NCBI GenBank assembly: GCA_021286705.1
Contig: JAJTBW010000023.1
Location: 1-32,854 of the forward strand
DNA: 32,854 bases
Source: Sphingobacteriia bacterium
GTDB lineage: Bacteria > Bacteroidota > Bacteroidia > Bacteroidales > TTA-H9
Direction: 5' to 3'
Both the position numbers and the translations under genes were made by a program. The notes below the pieces were generated by a model. It searched no databases. It had not been told where the DNA came from and was given only the letters and a program-made list of their open reading frames with translations. This document shows positions 8,854 to 24,894 of this stretch, one piece after another (the stretch's first letter is position 1; every line of letters begins with the position of its first letter).

Positions 8854-8952
8854 GCCTTACCACCAATCAGTAAGCAAAATTCTACTTCAATTAATTTCCA
8901 GATGGCAGAATAAAATATGATGCACTAACTTTTTAAACAAGATTCAGGATTG

Positions 8953-10785: not shown

Positions 10786-11973
10786 ATGAAATTACTGCAA
10801 CAAAAACTGGCAAAATACGACATTCCACAGAAGGCTCAACAAATGGGAATTTATCCTTACTTCAGGGTAATTGAATCTGAGCAAGATACTGAGGTACTAA
10901 TTGGTGGAAAAAAGGTTTTGATGTTCGGTTCTAATTCATATTTAGGACTCACTAGCCATCCAAGAGTTAAGGAAGGAGCAATTAAGGCGGTAGAGAAGTA
11001 TGGAAGTGGATGTGCGGGATCTCGTTTTTTAAATGGCACGTTAGACATTCATTTAGAACTTGAAAACCGTCTCGCCAAGTTTGTTGGGAAAGAAGAGACC
11101 ATCGTATACAGTGCAGGCTTTTTAGTTAATCTGGGAGTTATTTCTACAATCACAGGTCGTGATGATTATATTATTCTTGATGAGTTAGTTCATGCATCAA
11201 TTATTGAAGGAAGGCGGTTAAGTTTTTCGCAGGCGTTCAAGTACAAGCACAACGATATGGCTTCACTTGAAAAGGTTCTCAAGCAATGTAAGCCTGATAA
11301 AATCAAACTTATTGTAGTCGATGGCATTTTCAGCATGGAGGGAGACATTGCAAAACTTCCTGAGATTATTGCATTGGCAAAGCAATATGATGCTACAGTC
11401 ATGGTTGATGATGCCCATTCCCTTGGTGTAATAGGGCATAATGGAGCTGGAACTTCGTCTCACTTCGGATTAACTGAGGATACTGACCTGATTATGGGAA
11501 CCTTCAGTAAATCACTTGCTTCAATAGGTGGATTTATTGCTTCTGACAAAGACACAATAAATTTCTTAAAGCATAATAGTCGTTCTCTGATTTTCAGTGC
11601 TAGTATATCACCTGCTTCAGCCGGTAGCGTATTAGCCGCCATAGATGTTATCGAAGAGAATCCAGGCATCATTCAGGATTTGTGGAATAACACAAATTAT
11701 GCTCTGGATGAATTTAAAGCAATGGGCTTTGATACCGGACTGACTGAATCTCCGATAATTCCTTTATTCATCAGGGATAATGCTAAGACGTTCAAGTTTA
11801 CCAAGTTGTTATTAGAAGAGGGTATTTTTGTTAATCCGGTTGTAGCTCCTGCAGTACCTCCTGATTCAACGCTTATTCGTTTCTCATTAATGGCAACTCA
11901 TACCAAAGAACAGATTGACAAAGCCTTGGAAATCTGCCAAAAGATTGGTAAAAAGTTAGATATACTGCATTAA
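10786..11973 (+). CDS. spt: Serine palmitoyltransferase (first step of sphingolipid synthesis)
   Basis: An alpha-oxoamine synthase of 395 residues, predicted to condense L-serine with a fatty acyl-CoA to give 3-ketosphinganine in the cytoplasm. Visible residues are the start SNSYLGLTSHPRV (49-61), GSGCAGSRFLNGT (73-85), the ring-stacking His136 in LVHAS, VDGIFSMEGD (178-187), the PLP-N1 Asp in VDDAHSLGV (207-215), and the PLP lysine in GTFSKSLASIGG (Lys242). Family alternatives are 2-amino-3-ketobutyrate-CoA ligase and 8-amino-7-oxononanoate synthase; the absence of biotin or threonine genes and the presence of acyltransferase, headgroup transferase and inositol genes downstream favour the sphingolipid role, which is well known in Bacteroidota. 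It leads a tightly packed + strand operon. Confidence 0.88.
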   Translation: MKLLQQKLAKYDIPQKAQQMGIYPYFRVIESEQDTEVLIGGKKVLMFGSNSYLGLTSHPRVKEGAIKAVEKYGSGCAGSRFLNGTLDIHLELENRLAKFVGKEETIVYSAGFLVNLGVISTITGRDDYIILDELVHASIIEGRRLSFSQAFKYKHNDMASLEKVLKQCKPDKIKLIVVDGIFSMEGDIAKLPEIIALAKQYDATVMVDDAHSLGVIGHNGAGTSSHFGLTEDTDLIMGTFSKSLASIGGFIASDKDTINFLKHNSRSLIFSASISPASAGSVLAAIDVIEENPGIIQDLWNNTNYALDEFKAMGFDTGLTESPIIPLFIRDNAKTFKFTKLLLEEGIFVNPVVAPAVPPDSTLIRFSLMATHTKEQIDKALEICQKIGKKLDILH

Positions 11974-11996
11974 TCTGAACCTAATACCAGTGAACC

Positions 11997-13151
11997 ATGA
12001 GCAATATTAAAATTGTTGAGGTTTCGAGTAAGAAAGATTTTGACGCCTTTGTCAGTTTTCCAAATAAGCTATACCGAGATTGTCAATATTATGTTCCCAG
12101 TATTCGTAAAGAGGAAGAACAGATACTTACCGCATTTAGTAAACCTGAATTTGGTGGGTGCATAGTAAAATACTGGTTGGCATTTAAAGATAATGACATT
12201 GTTGGCAGAATAGCCGGAATTATAAATCACTCTTACATTAATAAGTGGGGAAAGCGCTTTGCAAGGTTTGGTTGGTTAGACTTTATTGATGACGAGAATG
12301 TGTCCGCTGCATTAATTGAAAAAGCAGAGACTTGGGCAATCAGTGAAGGTATGGAGGCATTAAACGGCCCAATGGGCTTTACTGACTTTGATCCTCAGGG
12401 TATTCTTATTGATGGCTTTGAAGAGATGTCGACTATCGTACAGAGATATAACTTCCCATATTACAGTGTTCATTTGGAGAATCTAGGTTTTGTAAAGGAT
12501 GCTGATTGGGTTGAATATCAGATTGCAGTTCCTAAAAGTATTCCTGTTGAGATTTCAAAATCAGCTGCATATCTAAAAAACAGATATGGTCTTCATGTTC
12601 CGAAACTGACTAGGAAAGAAGAGATAATACCCTATCTTGATGATATCTTCTCTATTCTTAATGAGATTTATAGCCTCATGTATGGTTTTGTACCTATTAC
12701 AGAAGAGCTAAAAGAGTTCTACGTAAGAAAGTATGTTAGTTACATTGATCCAAAGTTGATCGCATTAGTGCTAGATAAGGATAATAAACTTATAGCCTTT
12801 GGGATTACTATGCCGTCAATGAGTCCTCTCTTTAAAAAAGCAAATGGCAGTGCTTTAGCGCTAAAATCATATCTGCTTTTGGGCAATTACCCTAAGAACA
12901 AAATAGTAGATATGTATTTTATTGGAGTCAGACCCAGTTGGCTAAGTAGAGGCTTGAGTGCTGTACTTTTTGATTCCATTGGCACCTCATTAATTGAACA
13001 GCAATTTGAATTTGCTGAGACCAATATGGAGTATGAGAGTAATGAGGCAGTACAATCGCTCTGGCGCCGTTTTGAAAAAAGGCAGCATAAAAAAAGAAGA
13101 TGCTATCTTAAATATTTCATCAATAGCACAAGAATAGAAGATAATATTTAA
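11997..13151 (+). CDS. GNAT-like acyltransferase, candidate ceramide N-acyltransferase (copy 1)
   Basis: The 384-residue protein looks like the long GNAT-type acyltransferase family: an N-terminal half with PNKLYRDCQYYVP (22-34) and IVGRIAGIINH (68-78), a highly conserved centre GPMGFTDFDPQG (124-135), and a C-terminal half with FIGVRPSWLSRGLSAVLFDS, an acyl-CoA-binding-like segment, followed by a basic tail. It is a tandem paralogue of the next gene; the centre aligns with more than half of residues identical. It starts 23 bp after serine palmitoyltransferase. In Caulobacter the ceramide synthase is reported to be a GNAT-type protein encoded near serine palmitoyltransferase (from memory), so N-acylation of the sphingoid base is a reasonable inference. 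No experimental assignment can be claimed, and an unrelated acyl transfer is possible. Confidence 0.75.
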   Translation: MSNIKIVEVSSKKDFDAFVSFPNKLYRDCQYYVPSIRKEEEQILTAFSKPEFGGCIVKYWLAFKDNDIVGRIAGIINHSYINKWGKRFARFGWLDFIDDENVSAALIEKAETWAISEGMEALNGPMGFTDFDPQGILIDGFEEMSTIVQRYNFPYYSVHLENLGFVKDADWVEYQIAVPKSIPVEISKSAAYLKNRYGLHVPKLTRKEEIIPYLDDIFSILNEIYSLMYGFVPITEELKEFYVRKYVSYIDPKLIALVLDKDNKLIAFGITMPSMSPLFKKANGSALALKSYLLLGNYPKNKIVDMYFIGVRPSWLSRGLSAVLFDSIGTSLIEQQFEFAETNMEYESNEAVQSLWRRFEKRQHKKRRCYLKYFINSTRIEDNI

Positions 13152-13156
13152 ACTAT

Positions 13157-14278
13157 ATGCCAATAGAAATCAGGGAGGTTACATCAAAGCGTGAGCTTGA
13201 TCAATTCATTAAACTGCCTTTTGAACTTTACAAAAACAATCCCTATTGGGTTCCACCTATCATCATGGAGGAGAAAATGACCTTTACAAAAGGCAAAAAT
13301 CCTGCTCTTGATTTCTGCGATGTAAAGCTTTTCTTAGCCTTAAAAAACAACAAACCCGTTGGACGAATTGCCTCAATTATTAACCATAAGGCAAATGAGG
13401 TCTGGAAAAGCAAACATGCCCGATTTGGATGGATCGATTTTATAGATGATTATGAAGTTTCATCTGCACTATTCAAAGCTGCCGAGTCCTTTGCTCAGAA
13501 AAAAGGGATGGATGCAATTCATGGGCCATTAGGTTTTACTGATTTCGACAAAGAGGGAATGCTGATTTTTGGCTTCAATGAACTAAGTACAACAGCTACT
13601 ATTTACAACCATCCTTATTATCAAGTTCACACCGAAAAGGCAGGTTATCACAAAGATGCTGATTGGGTAGAATTTGAGATTAAGGCTGATATAACCTTAC
13701 CCGAAAAGCACAAGAGGATTGCTGAATTAGTAAAGCAGAAAAATGGGCTTAGACTACTCAATGCCAAAAGCAAGAAAGAGCTTATACCCTACATTCCCCA
13801 GATCTTTGACCTTATAAATGAATCATATCGTGATATATATGGTTTTGTTCCTGCAAATGCAGAACAAGTAAAATATTACACTAAACTATATTTTGGATTT
13901 GTAAATCCGGAGTTTGTTCCTGTAGTTTTGAATTCAGAAAACAAAGTGGTTGGTGTAGGTATAACAATGCCAAATATTAGTAAGGCATTACAAAAGGCTA
14001 AAGGAAAACTCTTCCCATTCGGATTTATCTATCTACTCCGAGCATTGAAGAAGATGGACACTGTTGATTTTTATCTTACTGCTATTAAACCTGAGTTACA
14101 GAACAAGGGGGTGAATGCATTGTTATTCGCCCAACTTATTCCAACTTATAATAAATACAAGATTATTAAAGCGGAGACTAACATCGAGCTAGAAGAAAAC
14201 CACAAGATTCAAAATATGTGGGAAGATTTTGAAAAAAGAAACCATAAACGTCGAAGAGCGTTTATTAAGCACTTTTAA
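13157..14278 (+). CDS. GNAT-like acyltransferase, candidate ceramide N-acyltransferase (copy 2)
   Basis: A 373-residue paralogue of the preceding gene. It shares the same order of motifs: PFELYKNNPYWVPP (21-34), PVGRIASIINH (67-77), HARFGWIDFIDD (87-98), GPLGFTDFDKEG (123-134), KDADWVEFEI, YGFVPA, and a C-terminal FYLTAIKPELQNKGVNALLF followed by KRNHKRRRAFIKHF. The start codon lies 5 bp after the stop of copy 1. Keeping two copies in one operon suggests either different acyl chain or base preferences, or a heteromeric enzyme (inference). Compared with copy 1 the middle segment around residues 270-310 is less similar. A 53-bp gap separates it from the next gene, without an evident terminator. 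Confidence 0.75.
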   Translation: MPIEIREVTSKRELDQFIKLPFELYKNNPYWVPPIIMEEKMTFTKGKNPALDFCDVKLFLALKNNKPVGRIASIINHKANEVWKSKHARFGWIDFIDDYEVSSALFKAAESFAQKKGMDAIHGPLGFTDFDKEGMLIFGFNELSTTATIYNHPYYQVHTEKAGYHKDADWVEFEIKADITLPEKHKRIAELVKQKNGLRLLNAKSKKELIPYIPQIFDLINESYRDIYGFVPANAEQVKYYTKLYFGFVNPEFVPVVLNSENKVVGVGITMPNISKALQKAKGKLFPFGFIYLLRALKKMDTVDFYLTAIKPELQNKGVNALLFAQLIPTYNKYKIIKAETNIELEENHKIQNMWEDFEKRNHKRRRAFIKHF

Positions 14279-14331
14279 TTCTGTCAGACTGATAGATTTA
14301 AAATCTTCCACAAAAACTACTTTAATTAAGA

Positions 14332-15378
14332 ATGGCAAAAAAAGAAATAATCTACTTCGACCGCAATGAGAATCATTATGGTCCTGCACCAGCCTGTTTT
14401 AAATCGCTGTCTAAGCCTAATTTTAAGAAAATGAGTAATTACTCGCGTGACTTTGCACGTGGGGTGAAAAGTAAATTATCTGAACGTCTAGCTAATGATT
14501 TACAAATTGAAGAATCTAGAATCTTACTAGGTTATGGAGGCGAAGACATCTTAAAACAGGCAGTTCACTGCTATATTAGTAAAGGTGATAAGATACTTAT
14601 ACCAGCTTACTCATGGTGGTACTATAAGGCAATTGCGGATGAAGTAGGTGGCGTAAAAATAGAGTATCCCATTGAAATAAAGGATGATACCTTTACTTAC
14701 AATGTTGATGCTATGATTAAAATATTCGAAAAAGAACAGCCAAAGTTGGCTCTAATCTCCTCTCCAAACAACCCTACGGGTAATGCAATAAGCAAAGAAG
14801 ACCTTATTCGCTTTTTAGATGCAAGTAAGGATATCACAGTGGTAATTGATGAAGCTTACACTTTGTTTGCCGATCCTGATACAAACTATCTTCATGATTT
14901 AGTTGACGCGTACCCTAATTTATTAATCATCAGAACATTTTCTAAGTATTATGCATTAGCTGGTGTACGCGTTGGTTATGCTTTGATGGGAACTAACCAT
15001 GCTCGATTTAATAGATTCTCAGCAAGATATCTTGGATACAATAGAATTTCTGAGAGAATTGCAATTGCAGCATTGGACTCACCAGAATACTATGAAGAGA
15101 TGAGACAAAGTATGCTGGCCGATCTTGACATGTTTTTCAACGAATTCAATAGTCTTAAAGGATTTAAGGCATTCAGATCGCTAGCCAATTTTATCCTTGT
15201 TGAGATACCTGAAGAGATAAAGGTTCCAATGAAGAACTATTTAGTTGAACGGGGGCTGATTGTCAAGTTCATGGATGAAGATAACCTGACTCATCACATT
15301 CGCGTTTCGCTTGGTACGCCTGAAGAGAATAAGCTATTGATGCAAACTATTAAGGAATTTGTAGCTAGCCGGGTTTAA
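14332..15378 (+). CDS. HisC-like class I/II PLP aminotransferase
   Basis: The 348-residue protein is a fold-type I PLP enzyme like histidinol-phosphate aminotransferase: RNENHYGPAP (11-20), SPNNPTGN (144-151), the PLP-N1 Asp173 in VIDEAY, the Schiff-base Lys205 in TFSKYYALAGVRVGYA, and a C-terminal IRVSLGTPEEN with the carboxylate-binding Arg. No other histidine genes are nearby, and the stop codon overlaps the start of a CDP-alcohol phosphotransferase (TAATG), so a role in lipid headgroup supply is more likely than histidine synthesis. One testable idea is production of an amino-phospho-alcohol such as ethanolamine phosphate, as HisC-related CobD-type decarboxylases can do; however, the C-terminal motif here is HisC-like rather than CobD-like. 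The substrate is unknown. Confidence 0.85.
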   Translation: MAKKEIIYFDRNENHYGPAPACFKSLSKPNFKKMSNYSRDFARGVKSKLSERLANDLQIEESRILLGYGGEDILKQAVHCYISKGDKILIPAYSWWYYKAIADEVGGVKIEYPIEIKDDTFTYNVDAMIKIFEKEQPKLALISSPNNPTGNAISKEDLIRFLDASKDITVVIDEAYTLFADPDTNYLHDLVDAYPNLLIIRTFSKYYALAGVRVGYALMGTNHARFNRFSARYLGYNRISERIAIAALDSPEYYEEMRQSMLADLDMFFNEFNSLKGFKAFRSLANFILVEIPEEIKVPMKNYLVERGLIVKFMDEDNLTHHIRVSLGTPEENKLLMQTIKEFVASRV

Positions 15379-16268
15379 TGATAAAAAGCTGGTATAAAGA
15401 ATATAAAAGCTCCTTGAAGGCAATAGAGACAGAGGAACTGCCTGATCTGTTTTTCTATCGTCCTATTGCCTTCTTATTCGTTAAAACAATTCAACGCTCA
15501 AACATAACACCTAACCAGATTACTTTAAGTGCAATGGTACTTGGTATTATTGGTGGGTGTTTTGCTATGGCAGGAGGAAGAGATTCATTTCTGGCAGCTG
15601 GGATTCTTTATATGTTATTTAATATCTTGGATTGTTCTGATGGGCAGTTAGCAAGAATCAAGAAAAACGGGACATTAACTGGTAGGATCATTGATGGGGT
15701 TGCTGATTACATCGTCGGCATCTTTATGTATATGGGATTCCTTATTGGTTATGGTTCAACTTTTTCAGAGCCGTTTTATTGGTGGCTTGCAATTATATTC
15801 ACAGGGGGAAGTAATGTAATTCATAGTATGTTGATTGACCATCAAAGGCTACGGTTTAATCACTTTGCTTTGGGTGAACCATTAAGCAATACCATTGATA
15901 CAGCTAAATTCTCGGAGGAAAGAGAACGTCTTAGAAAAATCAAAGGTCAGCTCTTTAATAGAATCATTCTTACGATATACTTAAACTACGCCAGCAGGCA
16001 AGGAAAAATCGCGAGGGTGGATAATTCGTTTAAAGCTCTTGAGAGTGTCCCTTCTAAGAGTTATTATAAAGCAAACAGGCCACTCATGTGGTGGTGGACG
16101 ATCTTAGGTCCAACAATGCAGATTACTATAATGGCTCTCTCTGCAATTCTATTTATTCCTGAGTTCTATGCCTTCTGGATGATTATTCCTATGAATATCC
16201 TTACGGTCTCCCTTATTTTGATTCAAAAGAAAACAGATAAAGACTTGATTAAGAGAAATGCAAAATAA
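15378..16268 (+). CDS. CDP-alcohol phosphotransferase (complete motif)
   Basis: An integral membrane enzyme of 296 residues that moves a phospho-alcohol between CDP and an acceptor alcohol. The full signature D-x2-DG-x2-AR-x8-G-x3-D-x3-D is present: Asp85, Asp88-Gly89, Ala92-Arg93, Gly102, Asp106, Asp110, preceded by ITPNQITL (43-50). Several hydrophobic segments fit the six-helix fold, with an extra soluble insertion of about 60 residues (about 165-225) before the last helices. It overlaps the gene before by one base and the cytidylyltransferase after by 11 bp. That pairing suggests it uses the CDP-alcohol made by the next gene, with diacylglycerol or ceramide as acceptor (inference), for example to make ceramide phosphoethanolamine or a phosphoinositol lipid. 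Confidence 0.9.
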   Translation: MIKSWYKEYKSSLKAIETEELPDLFFYRPIAFLFVKTIQRSNITPNQITLSAMVLGIIGGCFAMAGGRDSFLAAGILYMLFNILDCSDGQLARIKKNGTLTGRIIDGVADYIVGIFMYMGFLIGYGSTFSEPFYWWLAIIFTGGSNVIHSMLIDHQRLRFNHFALGEPLSNTIDTAKFSEERERLRKIKGQLFNRIILTIYLNYASRQGKIARVDNSFKALESVPSKSYYKANRPLMWWWTILGPTMQITIMALSAILFIPEFYAFWMIIPMNILTVSLILIQKKTDKDLIKRNAK

Positions 16269-17007
16269 ACTTACAGCAGTAATTCCGGCAGCAGGTATGT
16301 CAAGAAGATTAAAAAGCTTGACAGAAAACACTCATAAATCTTTACTTGAGGTTAATGGAAAACCATTACTACTTCGTATTCTCAAAAGTCTTAATGCCTC
16401 AGGAATATCAAATGTTGTAATTGTTACAGGATTTTGCAGTGATAAAATAAAATCGTCTGTTGCTGAATGGAATTTAGGCATTGAAGTTGATTTTGTTCAT
16501 AACCCCGATTATCAGACTACTAACAATATGTATTCACTATTCCTGGCTAGACCATTCCTTGAAAACTCAGGAATGCTCTTACTTGATAGTGATATTCTAT
16601 TTGATGAGCGAATTATTTCACTTCTTTTAGAATCTGGAGAATCAAATGTCATTGCACTGAGAGAATCACCAAACTTGAGTGAGGAAGAGATAAAAGTGAT
16701 CATAGATTCTTCTGGAAACGTAAAAGAGATAAATAAAACAGTTAATCCAAGTGAAGCAATAGGTGAATCAATTGGGATTGAGTTATTTGATATTGAAGCT
16801 ACTAATGCACTTTTTGAAATCATGGATCATCATATAAATAGTCTTAACCAGTTGAATGACTATTATGAGGTAGCCTTTGAAAAGAGCATATTAAAAGGAC
16901 TTCAAATAAAGCCAATAGCTGTTGGTGACCTATTATGTATGGAGATGGATACTCCTGAAGATTTTGAGATTGCTAACGAGTTAGCAAAGAAAATTGACAA
17001 AACGTAA
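16258..17007 (+). CDS. LicC-like CTP:phospho-alcohol cytidylyltransferase
   Basis: A 249-residue nucleotidyltransferase with the N-terminal nucleotide loop IPAAGMSRRL (9-18), a KSLLEVNGKPLL segment (27-38, with His where most relatives have Pro before Lys), NPDYQTTNNMYSL (82-94), a metal-binding DSD (110-112) and the C-terminal MEMDTPEDFE. The TNNMYSL element is characteristic of LicC-type phosphocholine and related cytidylyltransferases rather than sugar-1-phosphate enzymes, so the likely product is a CDP-alcohol. Choline, ethanolamine and inositol phosphates cannot be told apart by eye. The start overlaps the CDP-alcohol phosphotransferase by 11 bp, implying translational coupling and a shared substrate. 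Soluble, cytoplasmic. Confidence 0.85.
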   Translation: MQNKLTAVIPAAGMSRRLKSLTENTHKSLLEVNGKPLLLRILKSLNASGISNVVIVTGFCSDKIKSSVAEWNLGIEVDFVHNPDYQTTNNMYSLFLARPFLENSGMLLLDSDILFDERIISLLLESGESNVIALRESPNLSEEEIKVIIDSSGNVKEINKTVNPSEAIGESIGIELFDIEATNALFEIMDHHINSLNQLNDYYEVAFEKSILKGLQIKPIAVGDLLCMEMDTPEDFEIANELAKKIDKT

Positions 17008-17012
17008 TTCTA

Positions 17013-17810
17013 ATGATCTCCCCGTTTATAACCATAGCCCTAATTGGTCTTCTGGCAGGTTTTGTTTTTTCAATGCCTATTGCCGGACCAATTAGTATAC
17101 TAATCACAAGCAATGCTTTATCTGGGAAACTGCGTTATTGTATATTGGCTGCTCTGGGAGCTTCGTTTGCCGATTTTGTATATGTGTTTTTAGGAGTGCT
17201 AGGCCTTACAGAGACGTATCATTTATATCGACCTTATATCCCTTATGCACTTATACTTGGATCTTTTTTTATTTTTGCGATAGGTATAAAGATATTCAGA
17301 ACCAAAATTAAACTTCCCGCTAGTGACGAAAAAATTGTCAATCAAGGTCGTAATGGATTTCTTTCTGGATTTCTTATTAATTTCCTCAACCCTACCCTCT
17401 TTCTTGGTTGGTTAACCTCTTCTTTTTTAACAATTTCTTTGGTTGCTTGGTTAGGCTTTAACACTGGTGGCCTTGACCAAATGCTAAGAAAGAATGTAGA
17501 AGAGATATCAAAGATATCACCGGTTGATTCAAGTAATACAATAACGAAAGAATTTGCTTTCACCCAGGAAAATACCAATAAACCTAAAGCCGAATCTAAA
17601 CCAGCTTACCCTATCCTAATTAGCACTGTTTATGCCTTCTTTATTTCACTGGGAAGTATCATTTGGTTTTATCTACTATCAATTATCTTAGTTAAGTACC
17701 GTCTTAAAATCAAGCTGTCAACCCTCGGTCTTCTAATTAATGCACTTGGTTTAGTTTTAATTGCTCTTGGATTATGGGTAAGTATTAAAGGGATTAGCTC
17801 CATTATTTAA
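17013..17810 (+). CDS. LysE-family membrane protein
   Basis: The 265-residue protein has about six transmembrane segments and the LysE-type features MPIAGPISILITSNALSGK (20-38) near the N-terminus, GASFADFVYV (49-58), and NGFLSGFLINFLNPTLFLGWL in the middle. A polar loop of about 45 residues (about 150-195) separates the halves. LysE relatives export amino acids and small amines. Here it lies 5 bp after the cytidylyltransferase, at the end of the serine palmitoyltransferase operon, so it may move a headgroup precursor or lipid, but this is a guess from position. The same family appears commonly in Bacteroidota without known substrate. Confidence 0.8.
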   Translation: MISPFITIALIGLLAGFVFSMPIAGPISILITSNALSGKLRYCILAALGASFADFVYVFLGVLGLTETYHLYRPYIPYALILGSFFIFAIGIKIFRTKIKLPASDEKIVNQGRNGFLSGFLINFLNPTLFLGWLTSSFLTISLVAWLGFNTGGLDQMLRKNVEEISKISPVDSSNTITKEFAFTQENTNKPKAESKPAYPILISTVYAFFISLGSIIWFYLLSIILVKYRLKIKLSTLGLLINALGLVLIALGLWVSIKGISSII

Positions 17811-17868
17811 GCCCTCCTGTCTATCTAAGTTCTAACCGAAAGTAACAGAAACACTCCTTTACTTTCAA

Positions 17869-17887
17869 GTATAGATAATTACTATAC
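17869..17887. promoter_or_regulatory. Short palindrome upstream of the second nucleotidyltransferase
   Basis: GTATAG-ataatta-CTATAC is a perfect inverted repeat with 6-bp arms and 7-base spacer, 55 bp before the ATG at 17942. CAAATTTG at 17896-17903 resembles, but does not match, a -7 box. It could be an operator; nothing else supports it. Confidence 0.35.
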
Positions 17888-17941
17888 GAAATTATCAAAT
17901 TTGGCATAATCCATGTGCACTTAAGGGAAACTGAAATTTCA

Positions 17942-18634
17942 ATGAAACTAGCAATTATTGCAGCAGGAGAAGGCTCGCGACTACGACAAGAAGGCATACT
18001 TATTCCTAAACCACTTGTTCAAATCAATGGAATATCCCTAATAGACAGATTGGTTAAGAGAGCTGAGAATAACAATTTTACCTCTGTACATATCATAGTA
18101 AATGCCATTTACCCTGAACTATTTGAGTACGTTAAAGAGATTAAATCTCATATTCCAATTTTTATAAAAGTTAAAACGACAGAAAGTTCAATGCATAGTT
18201 TCTATGAGCTCAGTGATCAATTAGCTGACGAGCCGTTTTTACTTACCACAGTTGACCCCATCTTCAACGAGGATGAATTCAAGACATTTATAAGCTTTTG
18301 TAAGCTACACAAAGAATATGACGGAATAATGGCCGTTACCAAGTATGTTGATGATGAAAAGCCTCTATGGGTTGAGACTAATTCTGAAGGTATTATTCAA
18401 AGTTTTCAGTCTGAACGTAATAATGCAATGGTAGTCAGTGGTGGATTCTACTATTTAACTCCGAAAGTCATGCCTATTCTCCATAAATCAATTGAGGAAG
18501 GGATATGTAAAATGCGTAATTTCCAACAAGCACTTATTAACAACAGTCTTAGACTTAAGGCTTATGAATTTGCAAAAATAATTGATATAGATCACTTTAG
18601 TGATATTCAAAAGGCATCTGATTTTTTAAAATAA
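17942..18634 (+). CDS. Sugar/alcohol-phosphate nucleotidyltransferase
   Basis: This 230-residue protein has the nucleotidyltransferase opening IIAAGEGSRL (5-14) and IPKPLVQINGISLIDRL (21-37), and a metal-site-like LTTVDPIF (101-108). It belongs to the same superfamily as the LicC-like protein at 16258 but is distant from it, and in place of NNMYSL it has SSMHSFYEL (82-90). An upstream in-frame ATG at 17915 would add nine residues, but the domain begins exactly at the ATG at 17942, so that start is used. It is separated from the genes on both sides (131 bp before, 68 bp after), so it may be an independent unit. Position just before the inositol operon makes inositol-phosphate cytidylyltransferase an attractive but unproven idea. 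Confidence 0.82.
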   Translation: MKLAIIAAGEGSRLRQEGILIPKPLVQINGISLIDRLVKRAENNNFTSVHIIVNAIYPELFEYVKEIKSHIPIFIKVKTTESSMHSFYELSDQLADEPFLLTTVDPIFNEDEFKTFISFCKLHKEYDGIMAVTKYVDDEKPLWVETNSEGIIQSFQSERNNAMVVSGGFYYLTPKVMPILHKSIEEGICKMRNFQQALINNSLRLKAYEFAKIIDIDHFSDIQKASDFLK

Positions 18635-18675
18635 TTACTTTTTTCAAGAGAAAAACTCTATAAACCAAAATAGTT

Positions 18676-18699
18676 TTCTATCTTTGCACTAAGATAGAA
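18676..18699 (+). promoter_or_regulatory. TetR operator overlapping the inositol-operon promoter
   Basis: TTCTATCTT-tgcact-AAGATAGAA is a perfect inverted repeat with 9-bp arms, ending 3 bp before the ATG at 18703. It contains TATCTTTG (18679-18686), an exact TAnnTTTG -7 box, with the predicted start site inside the right arm. This is where a self-regulating TetR dimer would be expected to bind; the ligand assignment is inference. Confidence 0.75.
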
Positions 18700-18702
18700 G
18701 CT

Positions 18703-19332
18703 ATGGAACCACTACAACAACGATTCGTAGAGTGCGCAGTTAAACGATTTCTAGCGTATGGGGTCAGAAGTGTTACGATGGATCAGATTGCACAAGATGC
18801 AGGAGCATCTAAGCGGACGGTTTACGAACTTTTTTCAGACAAGGAAGAGCTGGTTAGAGCGTGCATTCAATACTTTGAAGAGACAAGAAGTAACGAAGCT
18901 ACAGCAATTATCGCTGAAAGTGAAAACGTACTTATAGCCTTGTTTAAGATAGCGAACCACCATCTTCAAGTTTTTCAATATATTAACCCATTGTTTTTCC
19001 AAGATATTGAACGATTTTATCCCAACCTATGGAAAGACTGTATATATAGGAATAATATTGAAAAACAAAAAGAGATAAAAAAATTCCTTGAAATTGGTAT
19101 TGAGCAAGGCTTTATCAGGTCTGATATTCATTTAGCAATTGCAGCTCGTGTTTTGCTTGAGCATACCAATCTGGCATTAGCTCCCGACATTATTAGACAT
19201 AGTGAGGATAACAGGAGAATTATATTCGAGAATCTAATTATCAACTATGTAAGAGGTATTTCTACAGATGCTGGGCTGAAATTACTCCAAGAGCTTAATC
19301 AGCAGAGTTTGTTAAAACCCCTTAATAACTAG
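18703..19332 (+). CDS. TetR-family transcriptional regulator
   Basis: The 209-residue protein has the N-terminal TetR DNA-binding domain: FVECAVKRFLAYGVRSVTM, then the helix-turn-helix DQIAQDAGASKRTVYELFSDKEELV (about 27-51). The remaining three-quarters is an all-helical ligand-binding domain that I cannot assign to a ligand. It is the first gene of a compact operon ending with myo-inositol-phosphate synthase, 4 bp before the ATP-grasp gene, and a palindrome on its promoter suggests autorepression of the whole operon. A lipid, acyl-CoA or inositol-derived effector would make sense but is speculation. The leader would be only about 10 nt, so translation must start with little or no 5' untranslated region. 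Confidence 0.92.
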   Translation: MEPLQQRFVECAVKRFLAYGVRSVTMDQIAQDAGASKRTVYELFSDKEELVRACIQYFEETRSNEATAIIAESENVLIALFKIANHHLQVFQYINPLFFQDIERFYPNLWKDCIYRNNIEKQKEIKKFLEIGIEQGFIRSDIHLAIAARVLLEHTNLALAPDIIRHSEDNRRIIFENLIINYVRGISTDAGLKLLQELNQQSLLKPLNN

Positions 19333-19336
19333 TTAA

Positions 19337-20161
19337 ATGAGAATAGCAGCTATCTCTCGTGGGCATAGATATTCCCCAAATCATATTGAAAACGATGCGC
19401 TTATTCTTAAGCTGACCATTGAAAATCTCGAAAAGCAAGGGTTCACAATTGACCTGTTTGGAGAAGATGAAATAAACCTTGATCTACTGAAAGATTATCA
19501 ACTCATCTTTAGTATGATTCGGAGCAGATATGCCCTTGATATCCTAAAGACATTAGAAAAAAAGGGAATTACGATAATAAACAATACCACAGGAGTATCT
19601 AACTGTTATCGAGCGCGGACAGCCGAGATATTACCAGCTAATGGAATACCTTTTCCCAAAAGCGTAGTTGTCAATTGCAATAAAAATCTTCCTGAAATCA
19701 GCCTCCCCTCTATTAACGGTTCATTTAAAGTTTGGATCAAGAGAGGCGATGTACATGCTATTCATAGAGAAGATGTAACTCTTGTATATAGTCAAGATGA
19801 GCTTGCAGGCACTGTTAGAGAATACAACAGAAGGGGTATAAAGGAAGCTGTTATTCAGGAGCAGATCGAAGGTGATGTAGTCAAATTCTATGCGGTCAGA
19901 AATAGTGGTTTCTTTCACTGGTACTATCATCCGGGATCTAGAAAACTTCCATTTGAGGATAAAGAGCTATCGAACATTGCTGCTCGTTGTGCAGAAATAC
20001 TTGATGTTGATGTTTATGGAGGTGATGCAGTGATTGACATACATGGAAACATTTGGATAATAGATTTGAATGACTGGCCAAGTTTTGCACCTATTCGAGA
20101 CACCGCATCAAAGCACATCTCTGAATTAATAGAAAAGAAAATTCTCAGTCCGGTCAATTAG
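19337..20161 (+). CDS. ATP-grasp enzyme in the inositol-lipid operon
   Basis: A 274-residue soluble protein with the layout of RimK-like ATP-grasp ligases: an N-terminal alpha/beta domain (1-85) with MIRSR, a middle part with NNTTGVSNCYRARTAEIL, the ATP-binding segment FKVWIKRGD (Lys135) and VIQEQIEGDVVKFYAV (172-187), and the metal-binding end GGDAVIDIHG (228-237) and IIDLNDWPSF (241-250; Asp243, Asn245). ATP-grasp enzymes ligate carboxylates to amines, but inositol polyphosphate kinases of the ITPK type use the same fold, so either ligation to a lipid headgroup or inositol phosphorylation is possible. It sits 4 bp after the regulator and 24 bp before the CDP-alcohol phosphotransferase. The substrate is unknown. 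Confidence 0.8.
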   Translation: MRIAAISRGHRYSPNHIENDALILKLTIENLEKQGFTIDLFGEDEINLDLLKDYQLIFSMIRSRYALDILKTLEKKGITIINNTTGVSNCYRARTAEILPANGIPFPKSVVVNCNKNLPEISLPSINGSFKVWIKRGDVHAIHREDVTLVYSQDELAGTVREYNRRGIKEAVIQEQIEGDVVKFYAVRNSGFFHWYYHPGSRKLPFEDKELSNIAARCAEILDVDVYGGDAVIDIHGNIWIIDLNDWPSFAPIRDTASKHISELIEKKILSPVN

Positions 20162-20185
20162 AGCAGCACCAAAGATCAAAAAGCG

Positions 20186-21091
20186 ATGAATAATGTAAGC
20201 CAAACATACAAATCTTTAGACACAGAAGAATTCCTTGACATACACTTTTATCGAAAAGTGGGTTATCTCATAGCCAAAGCAAGTGAAAAGGCCTCTATTA
20301 CACCTAATACACTTACCATTATAAGCATTTTTTGGGGCGTATTAGCAGGGCATCTATTCTATTATGAAAACATCTGGATAAATATCGTTGGGATTATTAG
20401 CCTTGTTATTGCAAATTCTTTAGATAGTGCAGACGGTCAATTGGCAAGAATGACCAATAACAAAACTCAATTAGGAAGAATCCTGGATGGCTTAGCAGGA
20501 AATTTCTGGTTCGTAAGCATCTATATCCACTTTGCACTACGTTTACAAAATGAAGGTTATGGGTCATGGATTTGGGGATTTGCAGCTCTAACAGGTTTTT
20601 TTCACATCTTTCAGGCAGCTGTAGCTGATTATTACAGAAATGCTCATCTCTTTTTTATAAAAGGAGTTAGTGGAAGTGAATTTGATAATTCAACAAAAGT
20701 AATAGAGCAGTACAATCAACTCACTTGGAAAAACGACTTTATCAATAAGCTATTCCTTGCTAACTATAAGAACTATGTAAAACAGCAAGAAATACTGACT
20801 AAGAATCTTCAAAGGCTTGTTAGCACAGTAAAAGAACTTTACCCAAACCAACTTCCTGATTGGCTTATTCAAAGTTTTAGAAACGATAACAAGCCCCTCA
20901 TGAAGTACACCAATATTCTCACATTTAACACAAGAGCGATCGTAATCTTTATTTCAGTTCTTACTGGACATCTTATCTGGTACTGGATCTTCGAAATCAC
21001 AGTACTAAACCTAATCTTTATCTATATGGTCATAAGACAAGAGATGATCAGTAAACATCATTTGACGCTTGTACTGAACGCCAAGAATTAG
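20186..21091 (+). CDS. CDP-alcohol phosphotransferase lacking the fourth Asp
   Basis: A 301-residue membrane protein paralogous to the enzyme at 15378: both share the opening TEE..D..FYR, the SITPNTLT element (38-44 here) and a long soluble insertion before the last helices. The signature reads Asp80, Asp83-Gly84, Ala87-Arg88, Gly97, Asp101, but the position of the fourth Asp, the proposed catalytic base, is Gly105 (ILDGLAGNFW). The rest is intact. In this operon it is the natural candidate for making the phosphoinositol lipid from a CDP-activated partner and inositol phosphate or its lipid acceptor. The missing Asp means either an altered mechanism, use of another base, or an inactive partner subunit. 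Confidence 0.87.
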   Translation: MNNVSQTYKSLDTEEFLDIHFYRKVGYLIAKASEKASITPNTLTIISIFWGVLAGHLFYYENIWINIVGIISLVIANSLDSADGQLARMTNNKTQLGRILDGLAGNFWFVSIYIHFALRLQNEGYGSWIWGFAALTGFFHIFQAAVADYYRNAHLFFIKGVSGSEFDNSTKVIEQYNQLTWKNDFINKLFLANYKNYVKQQEILTKNLQRLVSTVKELYPNQLPDWLIQSFRNDNKPLMKYTNILTFNTRAIVIFISVLTGHLIWYWIFEITVLNLIFIYMVIRQEMISKHHLTLVLNAKN

Positions 21092-21094
21092 AGA

Positions 21095-22090
21095 ATGAAA
21101 AAGAAATCACTAAACATAGGGTTTTTTCTGATCGGATTAATCATGTTAGTTTTTCTGGTCTGGGATTTTGGCTTTAAAAACATTGCATCAAATGTAGCCA
21201 AGACTGGTTGGTGGCTTTTGCCGATTACGGGAATCTGGATGGTTATTTACATCATGAATGCTGCAGCTTGGTTTGTAATTCTGGGAAAAGTTAAAGGGGT
21301 TAACTTTAAGACTTTGCTGCAATTAACTATAAGCGGTTTTTCCATTAACTACATTACCCCGGTTGTAGGGTTGGCTGGAGAACCATATAAAGTGATCAAT
21401 ATTCAAAAAAGTATTGGAATCGAAAGAGCTACCTCTTCGATCATCCTTTACAATATGATGCATATTCTTTCGCACTTCTTCTTCTGGATAACTGCAATAA
21501 TCTTAATTACGCTAAGCTCATTCTGGGATATTGTTTTAACGCAATCAACCTACATATCAATGGGGATCGTTTTTTTGGTCTTATGTTTAATGATCTCTGT
21601 ATTTTATGCCTGGCACAAGAAAGGAGTGGTATATTCAATGTTACGTTTTTTCGGGAAATTTCCTTTCCTGAAGAAGATGGTTGAAAATTTGTATAAGAAA
21701 GAAACTACTCTTACAAACATTGAAGATCAAATAATTGACCTATACACTAATAGGCGGAAATCGTTTTACCAAGCTTTAATACTCGAGTATGTTGCTCGTA
21801 TTGTGGGTGCTTTTGAATTCTATTTTATAATGCAAGCTATATCAGTCGATATAGACCTATTCTCATCTATTTACATTTCAGCTGCATCTTCATTAATAGC
21901 CAACCTCTTTTTCTTTATCCCTCTGCAATTAGGAACAAGAGAAGGAAGTCTATGGTTAGTCTATGATAGTCTAAAATTCACACCTGCATTAGGCGTATTT
22001 GTAAGTTTCGTGACTCGAATCCGAGAATTCTTCTGGATACTAATTGGACTTATTTTACTACGAATATCATCTTCAACTTCAAAAAACTAG
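21095..22090 (+). CDS. Flippase-like membrane protein (LPG_synthase_TM family)
   Basis: The 331-residue product is almost entirely transmembrane, with roughly eight segments and the family hallmark SINYITPVVGLAGEPYKVINI (about 84-104), a variant of the P-x-x-x-G-E-x-x-K pattern. Near the end, PLQLGTREGSLW is a second conserved loop. The family includes the membrane part of lysylphosphatidylglycerol synthase and many standalone proteins proposed to move lipids or act on lipid headgroups. It starts 3 bp after the CDP-alcohol phosphotransferase and ends 4 bp before the phosphatase. A role in flipping the inositol lipid across the inner membrane is an inference. No catalytic domain is attached. 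Confidence 0.85.
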   Translation: MKKKSLNIGFFLIGLIMLVFLVWDFGFKNIASNVAKTGWWLLPITGIWMVIYIMNAAAWFVILGKVKGVNFKTLLQLTISGFSINYITPVVGLAGEPYKVINIQKSIGIERATSSIILYNMMHILSHFFFWITAIILITLSSFWDIVLTQSTYISMGIVFLVLCLMISVFYAWHKKGVVYSMLRFFGKFPFLKKMVENLYKKETTLTNIEDQIIDLYTNRRKSFYQALILEYVARIVGAFEFYFIMQAISVDIDLFSSIYISAASSLIANLFFFIPLQLGTREGSLWLVYDSLKFTPALGVFVSFVTRIREFFWILIGLILLRISSSTSKN

Positions 22091-22094
22091 ATTA

Positions 22095-22820
22095 ATGAAC
22101 CAGATTACTACCATTTTATTTGATTTCGGAGGCACCCTTGATACAAATGGGGTACACTGGAGTGAGGCTTATTGGGACGGATATCTATCTGCTAAGGTAG
22201 ACATTCCAAAAACCCAGTATGAAAAAGCATTTGTAAAGGCTGGTGAAGAATTACTTGAAAATCTGATCAATGCGGAAAACACCTTTTACGATACCATCTC
22301 TCTTCAAATTCAACAACAATTAAGCATTCTAAACCAAGAAAAACTAATATCAATTGAGGATATAAAAATCTTTCATAAGCTCATATTAGAATCTTGCTAT
22401 AAAACAGTTCTTTTTAACATGGATAATGCAAGATCTATTTTACAACTTTTAAACAAGCATTATAAGCTGGGCATCGTAAGTAATTTCTATGGTAACATGC
22501 AGACTGTACTGAAAGAATTCAAGATAGACGAGTTCTTTAGTGTAGTAATTGATTCTGCAGTGTTAGGTATCAGAAAACCAGATCCAGAAATTTTCCTTGC
22601 TGCGACCAGGTCACTTCAATGTGATCCCAAAAAAACAGTTGTTATTGGAGACTCATATGACCGTGACATCATGCCAGCCAAATCAGTTGGATTTAAAACA
22701 ATATGGTTGAAATCGCGTAGCTGGAAAGAGGAGACCAGAAGCAAAGATGCCGACCTGATAATTGACAATCTTGAAAATTTGAAACCTATTTTTCTTAAAT
22801 ATTATCAATATAATTCTTAA
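22095..22820 (+). CDS. HAD-superfamily phosphatase, candidate inositol-lipid phosphatase
   Basis: The 241-residue protein shows HAD motif I DFGGTLD (Asp10 nucleophile), motif II SN (129-130), motif III Lys161 in IRKPDPEIF, and motif IV GDSYDRD (185-191), with a helical cap between about 20 and 105. The position two after the nucleophile, usually Asp, is Gly12; some HAD phosphatases with DxGN/DxGG loops also have this and remain active. An in-frame ATG at 22044 lies inside the upstream gene; the one at 22095, 4 bp after that gene's stop, places motif I correctly. Between a CDP-alcohol phosphotransferase and inositol-phosphate synthase, dephosphorylation of phosphatidylinositol phosphate or inositol phosphate is the expected job; Bacteroides thetaiotaomicron has a reported counterpart (from memory). 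Confidence 0.88.
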   Translation: MNQITTILFDFGGTLDTNGVHWSEAYWDGYLSAKVDIPKTQYEKAFVKAGEELLENLINAENTFYDTISLQIQQQLSILNQEKLISIEDIKIFHKLILESCYKTVLFNMDNARSILQLLNKHYKLGIVSNFYGNMQTVLKEFKIDEFFSVVIDSAVLGIRKPDPEIFLAATRSLQCDPKKTVVIGDSYDRDIMPAKSVGFKTIWLKSRSWKEETRSKDADLIIDNLENLKPIFLKYYQYNS

Positions 22821-22823
22821 ATA

Positions 22824-24140
22824 ATGGAAAGAAAACCTGTAAAGCCTACCGGCAAGTTAGGAGTACTTGTTGTAGGAATGAACGGTGCTGTTGCGACAAC
22901 TTTTATTGCAGGCGTTATGGCTGTAAGAAAAGGATATGGAGTACCAGTAGGATCTTTAACGCAGATGGCTACCATTCGTATTGGCAAGCGTGAAGAAAAC
23001 AATTTCCCTAAGATCAAAGACTTCCTTCCTTTATATGACCTCAGCAACATCGTTTTTGGTGGCTGGGATATCAGAGATGAAAGTGCTTATGAAGGTGCTA
23101 AAATTGCTGAAGTTCTTCTTGACAAGGATCTCGATCCTATTAAAGATGAATTGACTGCTCTTCGCCCCATGAAAGCTGTCTTTGATCAAAACTATGTTAA
23201 AAGGTTAGAAGGCACCTACGTTAAAAAAGCTGCTACTAAGGCTGAACTTGTTGAGCAAGTTAGAGAAGATATCCGTTCTTTCAAAGCAAAAAACGGTCTT
23301 ACCGATCTTGTAACCATTTGGTGTGGTAGCACTGAAGTATTTATCAAACCTGCAGAAGTACATGAAACAATTGCAAGTTTTGAGAAAGGACTTGCCGAAA
23401 ACCATGAAGATATTTCACCAAGTATGATTTATGCATGGGCTTCATTACTTGAAAATACTCCCTATATCAATGGAGCTCCCAACCTAACGGTTGACATGAA
23501 GTGTGTTCATCAACTCGCTGAAGAAAAGAGACTACCTATTGCAGGCAAGGATTTTAAGACTGGACAGACCATGGTTAAAACAATCATAGCCCCAATGCTT
23601 AAAATGAGAATGCTTGGCCTTGAAGGCTGGTTCTCTACTAATATTCTTGGCAACAGAGACGGTGAAGTTTTAGATGACCCTATGTCATTTAAAACAAAAG
23701 AAGAGAGTAAGCTCTCCGTAATTGAAAGCATTCTTCAACCTAAATTGTATCCTGAGCTCTATAAGGATTATTACCATAAGGTTAGAATCAACTACTACCC
23801 ACCAAGAAAAGACAACAAAGAGGGCTGGGATAACATTGACATCTTTGGATGGCTAAACTATCCTATGCAAATTAAAATTGATTTCTTGTGCCGCGATTCT
23901 ATCTTGGCTGCTCCTATTGCTCTTGACCTAGTTCTTTTAATGAACTTAGCTCATAGAATAGGCTTCTCAGGAACTCAAGAGTGGTTATCTTTCTATTTTA
24001 AGAGCCCTATGCACTCAGAAAATGTGGTTCCAGAACACGATCTCTTTATTCAGCATATCAAACTGAAAAATACAATGAGAGAGATCATGGATGAAGAACC
24101 TGTCAACCACATTGACGAAAAGATTAAGATGTTTAAATAA
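22824..24140 (+). CDS. myo-Inositol-3-phosphate synthase
   Basis: This 438-residue NAD-dependent enzyme converts glucose-6-phosphate to myo-inositol phosphate. The Rossmann loop GMNGAVATT is at 18-26, the catalytic lysine region GKDFKTGQT at 241-249 with KTIIAPMLKMRMLGL after it, and STNILGNRDG at 271-280. The length falls in the bacterial/Bacteroidota class rather than the longer eukaryotic class. It is the last gene of the TetR-led operon (3 bp after the phosphatase) and is followed by a strong terminator. It supplies the inositol headgroup for phosphatidylinositol or inositol-phosphoceramide. Since eukaryote-type use of inositol for osmolytes or signalling is not indicated by any neighbouring gene, lipid use is favoured. 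Confidence 0.96.
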   Translation: MERKPVKPTGKLGVLVVGMNGAVATTFIAGVMAVRKGYGVPVGSLTQMATIRIGKREENNFPKIKDFLPLYDLSNIVFGGWDIRDESAYEGAKIAEVLLDKDLDPIKDELTALRPMKAVFDQNYVKRLEGTYVKKAATKAELVEQVREDIRSFKAKNGLTDLVTIWCGSTEVFIKPAEVHETIASFEKGLAENHEDISPSMIYAWASLLENTPYINGAPNLTVDMKCVHQLAEEKRLPIAGKDFKTGQTMVKTIIAPMLKMRMLGLEGWFSTNILGNRDGEVLDDPMSFKTKEESKLSVIESILQPKLYPELYKDYYHKVRINYYPPRKDNKEGWDNIDIFGWLNYPMQIKIDFLCRDSILAAPIALDLVLLMNLAHRIGFSGTQEWLSFYFKSPMHSENVVPEHDLFIQHIKLKNTMREIMDEEPVNHIDEKIKMFK

Positions 24141-24147
24141 ATAACGA

Positions 24148-24182
24148 TAGAGGGGTGCCTCTTTTAACTTGGCACCCCTCTA
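24148..24182. terminator. Bidirectional terminator between convergent genes
   Basis: A 12-bp perfect stem TAGAGGGGTGCC / GGCACCCCTCTA with an 11-base loop lies between the stop of inositol-phosphate synthase and the stop of the minus-strand gene. A TATTTT tract follows on the + side. Confidence 0.9.
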
Positions 24183-24213: not shown

Positions 24214-24735
24214 CTATTTCTGTATAATCCGCTCGGTTAATGCTGACCCAGTCTTAATATCAACTCCGGTCAGTTCAACCCATGCTACCTTCATAAAACT
24301 ATCAGGCTTTGCTTGCACAAATATTTTCTGAAGCCAAGCTAATTTACCATTTATAATAATTCTGCTCCTCCATACCTTGCCATCCTTTATCACGATTAAT
24401 TTACGTTCAGGAAAGGCGACAAGCGATACTTCAAAGGAACCATCGCTGAATTTTTTTGAGGAATATCCATAAGCCATTGTTCTTTGAATATAATTCAACT
24501 CACTTCTCTCACCTGGATGATCTGTTCTGTTAATCCAATACACATGAATTGGACTATCCTCGTCGGGATTATTACCCTTTAGATTAACATCATAACAAAC
24601 CAGATTTGCATTCTTCGATCTGGCTATATGAAATAATCTATACGGACTATCATCGCTGTTTGAAAATGTAGCATTCAACTGAGAATATAGGCCTATAAAA
24701 AGAAATAGTAATGTCAGTGTAACCCTGGTCTTCAT
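24214..24735 (-). CDS. Secreted DUF4833-like protein
   Basis: With the start chosen at 24735 the product has 173 residues: a signal peptide (MKTRVTLTLLFLFIGLYSQLNA) followed by a beta-rich domain with RLFHIARSKNANLVCYDV, IHVYWINR, ERSELNYIQRTMAYGYS and VWVEL-like strands, resembling DUF4833 as I remember it. Upstream in-frame ATGs at 24825 and 24777 would prepend 30 or 14 residues, which would bury the signal peptide; a -7 box at 24759-24766 inside that extension also argues for the short form. It is convergent with myo-inositol-phosphate synthase and divergent from the DUF5686 gene. Its function is unknown; export to the periplasm or outer membrane is likely. Confidence 0.8.
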   Translation of the reverse strand: MKTRVTLTLLFLFIGLYSQLNATFSNSDDSPYRLFHIARSKNANLVCYDVNLKGNNPDEDSPIHVYWINRTDHPGERSELNYIQRTMAYGYSSKKFSDGSFEVSLVAFPERKLIVIKDGKVWRSRIIINGKLAWLQKIFVQAKPDSFMKVAWVELTGVDIKTGSALTERIIQK

Positions 24736-24758
24736 TTTGCGTCTATATAATTTGATGA

Positions 24759-24766
24759 CAAAATTA
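24759..24766 (-). promoter_or_regulatory. -7 promoter element for the DUF4833-like gene
   Basis: The minus strand reads TAATTTTG, matching TAnnTTTG, giving a predicted start about 17 nt before the ATG at 24735. It would lie inside the coding region if either longer start were used, supporting the shorter one. No -33 element was seen at normal spacing. Confidence 0.5.
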
Positions 24767-24894
24767 TCTGTTTTCATCTCGCTCTCCCTGATTTTTTCTA
24801 TCAAAGAGACAAAAAAAGAGAACATTTAGACCAACTCACTGTTTTAAAGCTACAAAACTATCTAAGAGTAAAGCAATTAAAGGAATTTCACCTT

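Follow-up and report, generated by a model that had tools for sequence, protein, structure and literature searches.

The window analysed here is a whole stretch of 32,854 nucleotides from Sphingobacteriia bacterium (GTDB lineage Bacteroidales, TTA-H9; contig JAJTBW010000023.1 of assembly GCA_021286705.1), and our subject is a putative lipid-biosynthesis locus within it. In the open reading frame (ORF) listing of the window, 14 ORFs, all on the + strand, extend from position 10786 to position 24140, beginning with serine palmitoyltransferase (SPT) and ending with myo-inositol-phosphate synthase (MIPS). At the listed starts, the gaps between successive ORFs are 23, 5, 53, -1, -11, 5, 104, 68, 4, 24, 3, -47 and 3 bases. 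Ten of the 13 are below 25, and a sequence-only reading that had described a contiguous + strand locus with mostly overlaps or gaps under 25 bases was thus borne out. The locus consists of three modules side by side: SPT with two GNAT proteins; a trio comprising a pyridoxal phosphate (PLP) enzyme, a CDP-alcohol phosphotransferase (CAPT1) and a nucleotidyltransferase (NT1); and an inositol block of a second nucleotidyltransferase (NT2), an ATP-grasp-like protein, a second CDP-alcohol phosphotransferase (CAPT2), a flippase-like protein, a HAD hydrolase and MIPS. Judging from the translations, the listed starts of NT2 and HAD are probably too early. The genes, followed by a downstream neighbour, are:

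10786..11973, +, serine palmitoyltransferase (SPT); NF047600, 680.6 bits, cut-off 640
11997..13151, +, GNAT1, candidate N-acyltransferase; no family of its own, 42% identical to GNAT2 (alignment A3)
13157..14278, +, GNAT2, candidate N-acyltransferase; predicted tandem GNAT, predicted local distance difference test (pLDDT) score 88.0; PDB 7q3a, E 1.8e-14; PF00583 in relatives
14332..15378, +, PLP enzyme of the HisC/CobD fold, third clade, predicted O-phosphoserine decarboxylase; profile scores, tree and alignment
15378..16268, +, CAPT1, predicted CDP-ethanolamine:ceramide transferase; PF01066, full motif, fold
16258..17007, +, NT1, LicC-like, predicted phosphoethanolamine cytidylyltransferase; LicC profile match 1.5e-31, PLP neighbour in 64/80 loci
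17013..17810, +, LysE-family membrane protein, candidate transporter; PF01810, NT1 neighbour in 12/80 loci, near SPT in L194
17915..18634 (start likelier 17942), +, NT2, likely inositol-phosphate cytidylyltransferase; PF00483/PF12804, 15/30 other MIPS loci
18703..19332, +, TetR-family regulator; PF00440
19337..20161, +, ATP-grasp-like protein of the inositol branch; RimK matches below cut-off, relatives named ATP-grasp, constant NT2 neighbour or fusion partner
20186..21091, +, CAPT2, likely of the inositol branch; PF01066, 44-53% identical to MIPS-linked relatives
21095..22090, +, LPG_synthase_TM (flippase-like) membrane protein; PF03706
22044..22820 (start likelier 22095), +, HAD hydrolase; PF00702/PF13419, 17/30 other MIPS loci
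22824..24140, +, myo-inositol-phosphate synthase (MIPS); PF07994 and PF01658
24895..27486, +, DUF5686/CarbopepD_reg outer-membrane-type protein; PF18939 and PF13715

The earlier reading had listed the genes of the locus correctly, except that it omitted the LysE-family gene, and three of its labels hold only in part. Neither GNAT protein itself matched a Pfam or NCBIfam family; many relatives carry PF00583, and GNAT2, for which a search of the PDB by sequence gave no match, has a predicted tandem GNAT fold that matches the structure 7q3a. The ATP-grasp-like protein had no Pfam match, only RimK-type matches below cut-off, and no match in the PDB by sequence, but its relatives are named ATP-grasp. 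The "HisC-like" PLP enzyme does have the HisC/CobD fold, but scores below the cut-offs of both families. SPT exceeds the cut-off of the Bacteroidetes-type serine palmitoyltransferase model NF047600. As the earlier reading had noted, a 3-ketosphinganine reductase was absent from the families of the scanned window ORFs (the genome was not searched for one); in B. thetaiotaomicron, passages of PMC9278070 likewise place this gene outside any cluster with SPT.

Conservation of the locus and of its modules

Gene order was kept at three other loci, from dnaA through DUF5686 or, in L107, as far as DUF4833, where the stretch ends. These are L004, from Bacteroidetes bacterium GWE2_42_24, L005, from Bacteroidales bacterium STD2_97 (genome G343), and L107, from genome G280. 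Genomes G168 and G280 belong to the family of the window, and L004 is apparently part of G168, as their contig positions match. The same order in all three indicates an arrangement that exceeds chance. SPT was present in 64 of 198 Bacteroidales genomes sampled, and the SPT loci of 40 of these 64 were compared in addition to the three. No relative of a CAPT, of a nucleotidyltransferase or of MIPS was found in the SPT stretch of any of the 40, the sole relative of the PLP enzyme was 25% identical (L181), and a GNAT1/2 relative was present at seven. At L139 (genome G198), MIPS, DUF5686, SPT (57% identical), GNAT2 (50%) and DUF4833 occur together with a CAPT of the B. thetaiotaomicron type. The neighbourhood is therefore conserved in three close relatives, but the head-group genes are missing from the 40 other SPT loci, which makes the joining of all branches a trait of this family with L139 as a looser parallel. 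The earlier claim that backbone and head-group genes are colocalised stands, since they are contiguous here and conserved in the three relatives, and its candidate list is a useful one. Its single head-group set contained the right genes but did not distinguish the trio as a separate and widespread module.

The trio was followed through NT1. Relatives were collected by a search with alignment A1; the best 80 of at least 509 were taken, and neighbours were counted within 4.5 kb. A PLP enzyme was found at 64 of the 80 loci, a CAPT at 39 and a LicD relative at 23. The three genes lie in the order PLP, CAPT1, NT1 on one strand at 22 loci, with fewer than 30 bases between PLP and CAPT1 in 20 of the 22, while at 36 loci PLP and NT1 share a strand without a CAPT1 homologue. 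LicD relatives adjoin the PLP-NT1 pair at 20 loci (the 23 minus those without PLP), with LicD confirmed by Pfam PF04991 for L068 only. Taxa represented among the NT1 loci include Melioribacteraceae, Ignavibacteria, Calditrichota, a Desulfobacterales, an Aminicenantes, Prevotella, Bacteroides and Dysgonomonas, and NT1 was present in 15 of 149 genomes of a first class-wide sample.

Two further arrangements were seen around NT1. The LysE-family gene accompanies it at 12 of the 80 loci, four of which have no PLP enzyme in the stretch, although the flanks of L020 are complete; another LysE-family relative lies at L194:1119-1958, near SPT-GNAT2. At eight Bacteroidales places (L094-L100 and L104), an NT1 relative, 27-42% identical, is contained in an open frame of 581-670 amino acids. 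In L095 (1501-3306), the only one of these whose domains were checked, an NTP transferase forms one protein with a class I/II aminotransferase domain, which falls among CobD-like proteins, on a long branch.

The inositol block was compared through MIPS, which is present in 30 of the 198 Bacteroidales genomes; 30 MIPS places were used, after exclusion of three that belong to the window genome, G168 and G280. NT2 was found at 15 of these, CAPT2 and HAD at 17 each, and an LPG_synthase_TM relative beside CAPT2 at seven. The nucleotidyltransferase, CAPT and HAD genes found directly beside MIPS in the window thus recur as a block at 15-17 of the 30. The ATP-grasp gene lies between NT2 and CAPT2 at 14 of the 15 NT2-bearing loci, and is fused to NT2 at the fifteenth (L148). 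At five loci (L139, L144, L146, L147 and L154) there is a CAPT whose motif ends in a BT_1523-like manner, and the remaining eight, several of which are ended by contig edges, show neither CAPT type. PLP and NT1 occurred at none of the 30, as against 15 for NT2 and 17 for CAPT2, which argues that NT1 and NT2 serve different branches; within the 80 NT1 stretches, MIPS was found only at L004 and L005. SPT was present in 27 of 30 MIPS genomes compared with 64 of 198 overall (p 1.2e-12, kinship ignored). Natural fusions were also seen in the block, joining NT2 to ATP-grasp (L148:4410-5948, 513 amino acids) and LPG_synthase_TM to HAD (L127:9915-11630, 572 amino acids).

Upstream of SPT, positions 8950-10625 hold a PALP enzyme and a relative of the RsmI-like methyltransferases (87.2 bits, cut-off 167.9), a pair that keeps its place in L004, L005 and L107. 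Downstream of MIPS, a DUF4833 gene lies on the - strand (24214-24825), and its relatives share a stretch with SPT or MIPS in L127, L139 and L194. A DUF5686/CarbopepD_reg-type neighbour, like that at 24895..27486, is also named beside published inositol-lipid clusters in passages of PMC9246714. A terminator-like hairpin was found directly 3′ of MIPS (24149-24162) in a scan that was overall at shuffle level: promoter and terminator scans of the window gave 43 versus 48.1 and 10 versus 8.6 in shuffles, respectively. Scans of the window for tRNA genes and Rfam families gave no matches.

Proteins of the trio

The PLP enzyme scored 229.3 bits against the HisC model TIGR01141 (cut-off 276.55) and 128.6 bits against the CobD model TIGR01140 (cut-off 290.55). 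In a tree of 38 rows it fell into a 16-row clade, supported at 100/100, with other trio-associated, LicD-linked and Prevotella PLP enzymes. This clade is separate from the HisC and CobD-like rows, comprising four HisC proteins that exceed their cut-off and two CobD-like proteins that narrowly miss that of CobD (274.5 and 283.8). Across 63 aligned members of the clade, the PLP-binding lysine and a C-terminal Arg are conserved; every one of the 63 has Lys at position 312, whereas all six HisC and CobD-like rows have Arg, and a WWYY stretch at 95-98 includes two residues that form an insertion. The predicted substrate is O-phosphoserine. A CobD-like phosphoserine decarboxylase provides a precedent, one that our literature search did not retrieve.

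When a profile of 20 NT1 sequences was compared with solved structures, the best match was LicC (1.5e-31), followed by 6pd1 (6.8e-27), which is PntC, the aminoethylphosphonate enzyme, and by the CTP:inositol-1-phosphate cytidylyltransferase 2xme (6.4e-13). R17, K27 and D112 were invariant in 20 of 20 aligned sequences. Catalytic roles for Arg, Lys and Asp in such cytidylyltransferases are given in passages of PMC12275187. NT1 is thus LicC-like, and its predicted substrate is an amino-alcohol phosphate.

CAPT1 conforms to the motif DxxDGxxAR...GxxxDxxxD, the Asp, Gly, Ala and Arg columns of which were invariant in 28 of 28 aligned sequences, and it belongs to the trio in other phyla too. A VIA-align ranking placed AF2299 and IPCT-DIPPS above CPT1/CEPT1, which indicates the fold of CAPT1 and not its substrate. 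CAPT2 was assigned by its fold family, PF01066, as it lacks the last Asp in the GxxxDxxxD half of the motif: in the CAPT2 clade this Asp is replaced by Gly in all 27 covering rows (the window protein, 20186-21091, and 26 relatives). The residue after this Gly is Asp in 14, Asn in six (window, L004, L005, L107, L127 and L128) and Phe or Pro in seven. CAPT2 shares 44 to 53% identity with MIPS-linked CAPTs. A second set of the clade, 33 to 38% identical, lies near PLP and NT1 at seven loci, six from Prevotella/Prevotellaceae and one from a Bacteroidales. The first motif reads DSxDG in the window and MIPS-linked CAPT2 rows, and DCxDG at the seven PLP/NT1-linked loci and in most of the 36 CAPT1 rows, that of the window included; the exceptions among the latter are DLSDG in four Calditrichota, DSADG in three rows and one row that is uncovered.

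Proposed pathway and alternatives

We give an even chance to the proposal that the locus would make ceramide as well as two head groups, phosphoethanolamine by a soluble CDP-ethanolamine route of the trio, and probably phosphoinositol via CDP-inositol made by the MIPS block. SPT, whose family is clear, would make 3-ketosphinganine in the opening reaction of sphingolipid synthesis, the reductase for which would sit elsewhere, and GNAT1, GNAT2 or both may acylate the amine. The PLP enzyme would decarboxylate O-phospho-L-serine to phosphoethanolamine, NT1, given its likeness to LicC, would convert this to CDP-ethanolamine, and CAPT1 would move phosphoethanolamine onto ceramide. In the inositol branch, MIPS, again clear as to family, would supply inositol phosphate, NT2 would make CDP-inositol, and CAPT2 would move phosphoinositol onto lipid. 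The LPG_synthase_TM and LysE-family proteins are, speculatively, candidates for moving lipids across the membrane. A broader proposal, to which we would commit ourselves somewhat less readily than to an even chance, is that the third branch of the HisC/CobD fold together with a LicC-like cytidylyltransferase forms a phosphatidylserine-independent de novo pathway to CDP-ethanolamine, used on ceramide (CAPT1) or on glycans (LicD) across Bacteroidota, Ignavibacteria and Calditrichota. A CDP-activated ceramide head group has a precedent in CpgD, which makes CDP-glycerate according to passages of PMC12275187. Each of the four genomes in the Bacteroidales sample that hold the trio (G000, G168, G280 and G160) has SPT, as do G343 and G361, at 64-100% identity in these six, four of which are close relatives.

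The alternative to which we attach most weight, though it is unlikely, is that the trio makes a different CDP-amino-alcohol and hence another head group, starting from 2-aminoethylphosphonate, serinol phosphate (from dihydroxyacetone phosphate) or aminopropanol phosphate. Lys at position 312 of the PLP clade, where HisC and CobD have Arg, would fit such a change, decarboxylation and transamination are not told apart by sequence, and the second-best solved relative of NT1, 6pd1, is a nucleotidyltransferase/aminotransferase. The aminoethylphosphonate route appears disfavoured by the phosphoenolpyruvate (PEP) mutase family PF13714, full-length matches to which were found in only 2 of 30 module genomes; matches above cut-off occurred in 6 of the 30, and that of the window genome is a single partial one of 107 positions (31.8 bits, cut-off 31.5). 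The presence of PF13714 matches in 11 of 14 control genomes shows that the family is not specific to PEP mutase. Also counting against another head group, serinol- or aminopropanol-phosphoceramide is not known as a Bacteroidota lipid, whereas B. thetaiotaomicron has plentiful ethanolamine phosphoceramide, one of the two most abundant sphingolipids of its vesicles (PMC8791184). It is less probable still that the trio constitutes a Kennedy-type route onto diacylglycerol, yielding phosphatidylethanolamine (PE) or a relative, and lies beside SPT simply because envelope lipids are regulated together. Against this, SPT is present in all six Bacteroidales trio genomes checked, compared with 64 of 198 in the sample, and phosphatidylserine decarboxylase is already present in 28 of the 30 module genomes. 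The latter count also means that an absence of that decarboxylase does not support the trio as the sole ethanolamine route.

Production of sulfonolipids, with the SPT homologue acting as a cysteate acyltransferase, is highly improbable. For Alistipes, the enzyme that opens sulfonolipid synthesis has been presented alongside SPT within the same pathway logic (PMC9304779), but SPT here is above the NF047600 cut-off (no cysteate acyltransferase was scored on the same model), MIPS and SPT co-occur, and the upstream PALP gene has its closest family in beta-hydroxyaspartate dehydratase (413.9 bits, cut-off 550). Hardly any weight at all attaches to the view that the PLP enzyme is the HisC of histidine biosynthesis among a chance mixture of neighbours. 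It is the best HisC match of the window genome (229.5 bits), but histidinol dehydrogenase (HisD) was not found in that genome, G168, G280, G343 or G344, and HisC above cut-off was not found in G000, G168, G280 or G344 (G343 was not searched for HisC). Where HisD does occur (G160, G346, G365 and G366), a separate HisC above cut-off lies on the same contig. Together with the separate clade, these absences make a role in histidine synthesis very unlikely; on these grounds, the sub-cut-off score and the alignment, that candidate was rejected, and the conserved PLP-NT1 pairing also opposes it.

Several observations weigh against the assignment of the trio to an ethanolamine head group on ceramide. 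At 16 of the 80 NT1 loci there is no PLP enzyme within 4.5 kb, some of these being ended by contig edges, and the 23 loci with a LicD relative nearby suggest that glycans are an alternative acceptor. Within Bacteroidales, NT1 is found in only 9 of the 64 SPT-bearing genomes sampled, and no enrichment of SPT was detected, with SPT in 9 of 22 NT1 genomes against a background of 64 of 198. As PE-dihydroceramide was reported for all Bacteroides species tested (PMC10191378), the 9 of 64 implies that another, general route must exist, and phosphatidylserine decarboxylase in 28 of 30 module genomes makes the trio dispensable for ordinary PE. In trio genomes outside Bacteroidales, all seven SPT-like proteins scanned scored 475-527, below the NF047600 cut-off of 640, and SPT-like genes (E <= 1e-100) occurred in 224 of 296 genomes of a phylum sample. 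Co-occurrence with SPT outside Bacteroidales was consequently set aside as uninformative about the acceptor. In trio genomes of other groups, a GNAT2 relative (27-34% identical) comes next after the SPT-like gene at 14 of 17 places (L226-L242). Such adjacency supports GNAT as an acyltransferase for lipids of this class more than it indicates the acceptor.

Comparison with known systems

No bacterial ceramide phosphoethanolamine synthase, and no PLP-CAPT1-NT1 trio, turned up among the open-licence PMC records listed, at title and abstract level, and a search of B. thetaiotaomicron with the eukaryotic synthase gave no match according to passages of PMC8791184. The trio offers three candidate genes for supplying a bacterial sphingolipid with an ethanolamine head group, a step without candidates in the literature searched, and the GNAT genes adjoining SPT are acyltransferase candidates. 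Comparison across genomes separates the trio from the inositol genes and brings ATP-grasp into the putative inositol route as a constant member. All of the proposed steps lend themselves to assays of soluble proteins or of single membrane proteins.

The inositol half of the locus has already been proposed in the literature; what is new is the trio, together with its position next to SPT and the inositol block. For the alternative inositol-lipid cluster of B. vulgatus and Prevotella, which is putative, Heaver et al. (2022) propose an NTP transferase, a CAPT and HAD together, and assign to HAD the step from phosphatidylinositol to phosphoinositol dihydroceramide (passages of PMC9246714). The window shares with it these three genes and MIPS as well as LPG-synthase-like and carboxypeptidase-regulatory neighbours, the comparison being one of architecture and not of B. 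vulgatus sequences. The block differs in adjoining SPT, two GNATs and the trio, and in its constant ATP-grasp member, a term absent from the main text of PMC9246714.

The BT_1522-1526 cluster of B. thetaiotaomicron, which the sequence-only reading had cited, resembles the locus in having MIPS and a CDP-alcohol transferase (passages of PMC9246714 and PMC8791184). The likeness does not extend to a phosphatidylinositol phosphate synthase of the BT_1523 type, none of which scored above the NF052561 cut-off of 350 in the window genome (26.2 bits) or its relatives G168 (30.2), G280 (25.5) and G343 (27.8); the architecture is instead that of the alternative cluster. SPT of B. thetaiotaomicron (BT_0870) lies away from its inositol cluster, in agreement with the earlier reading (passages of PMC9246714).

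The trio also recalls the LicC/LicD phosphocholine systems and 6pd1, as LicC is the closest match of NT1 and 6pd1 the second, and some PLP-NT1 loci lie beside LicD relatives. It differs from them in its PLP partner, which is of the HisC/CobD kind (PF00155) whereas 6pd1 is labelled class V, and in having a CAPT as transferase. With the ceramide phosphoglycerate pathway CpgA-D of Caulobacter the locus would share the activation of a ceramide head group by a CTP-dependent nucleotidyltransferase (passages of PMC12275187 and PMC11324152). There, in contrast, the head group is phosphoglycerate, the first unit is provided by the ceramide kinase CpgB, and the gene set is a different one.

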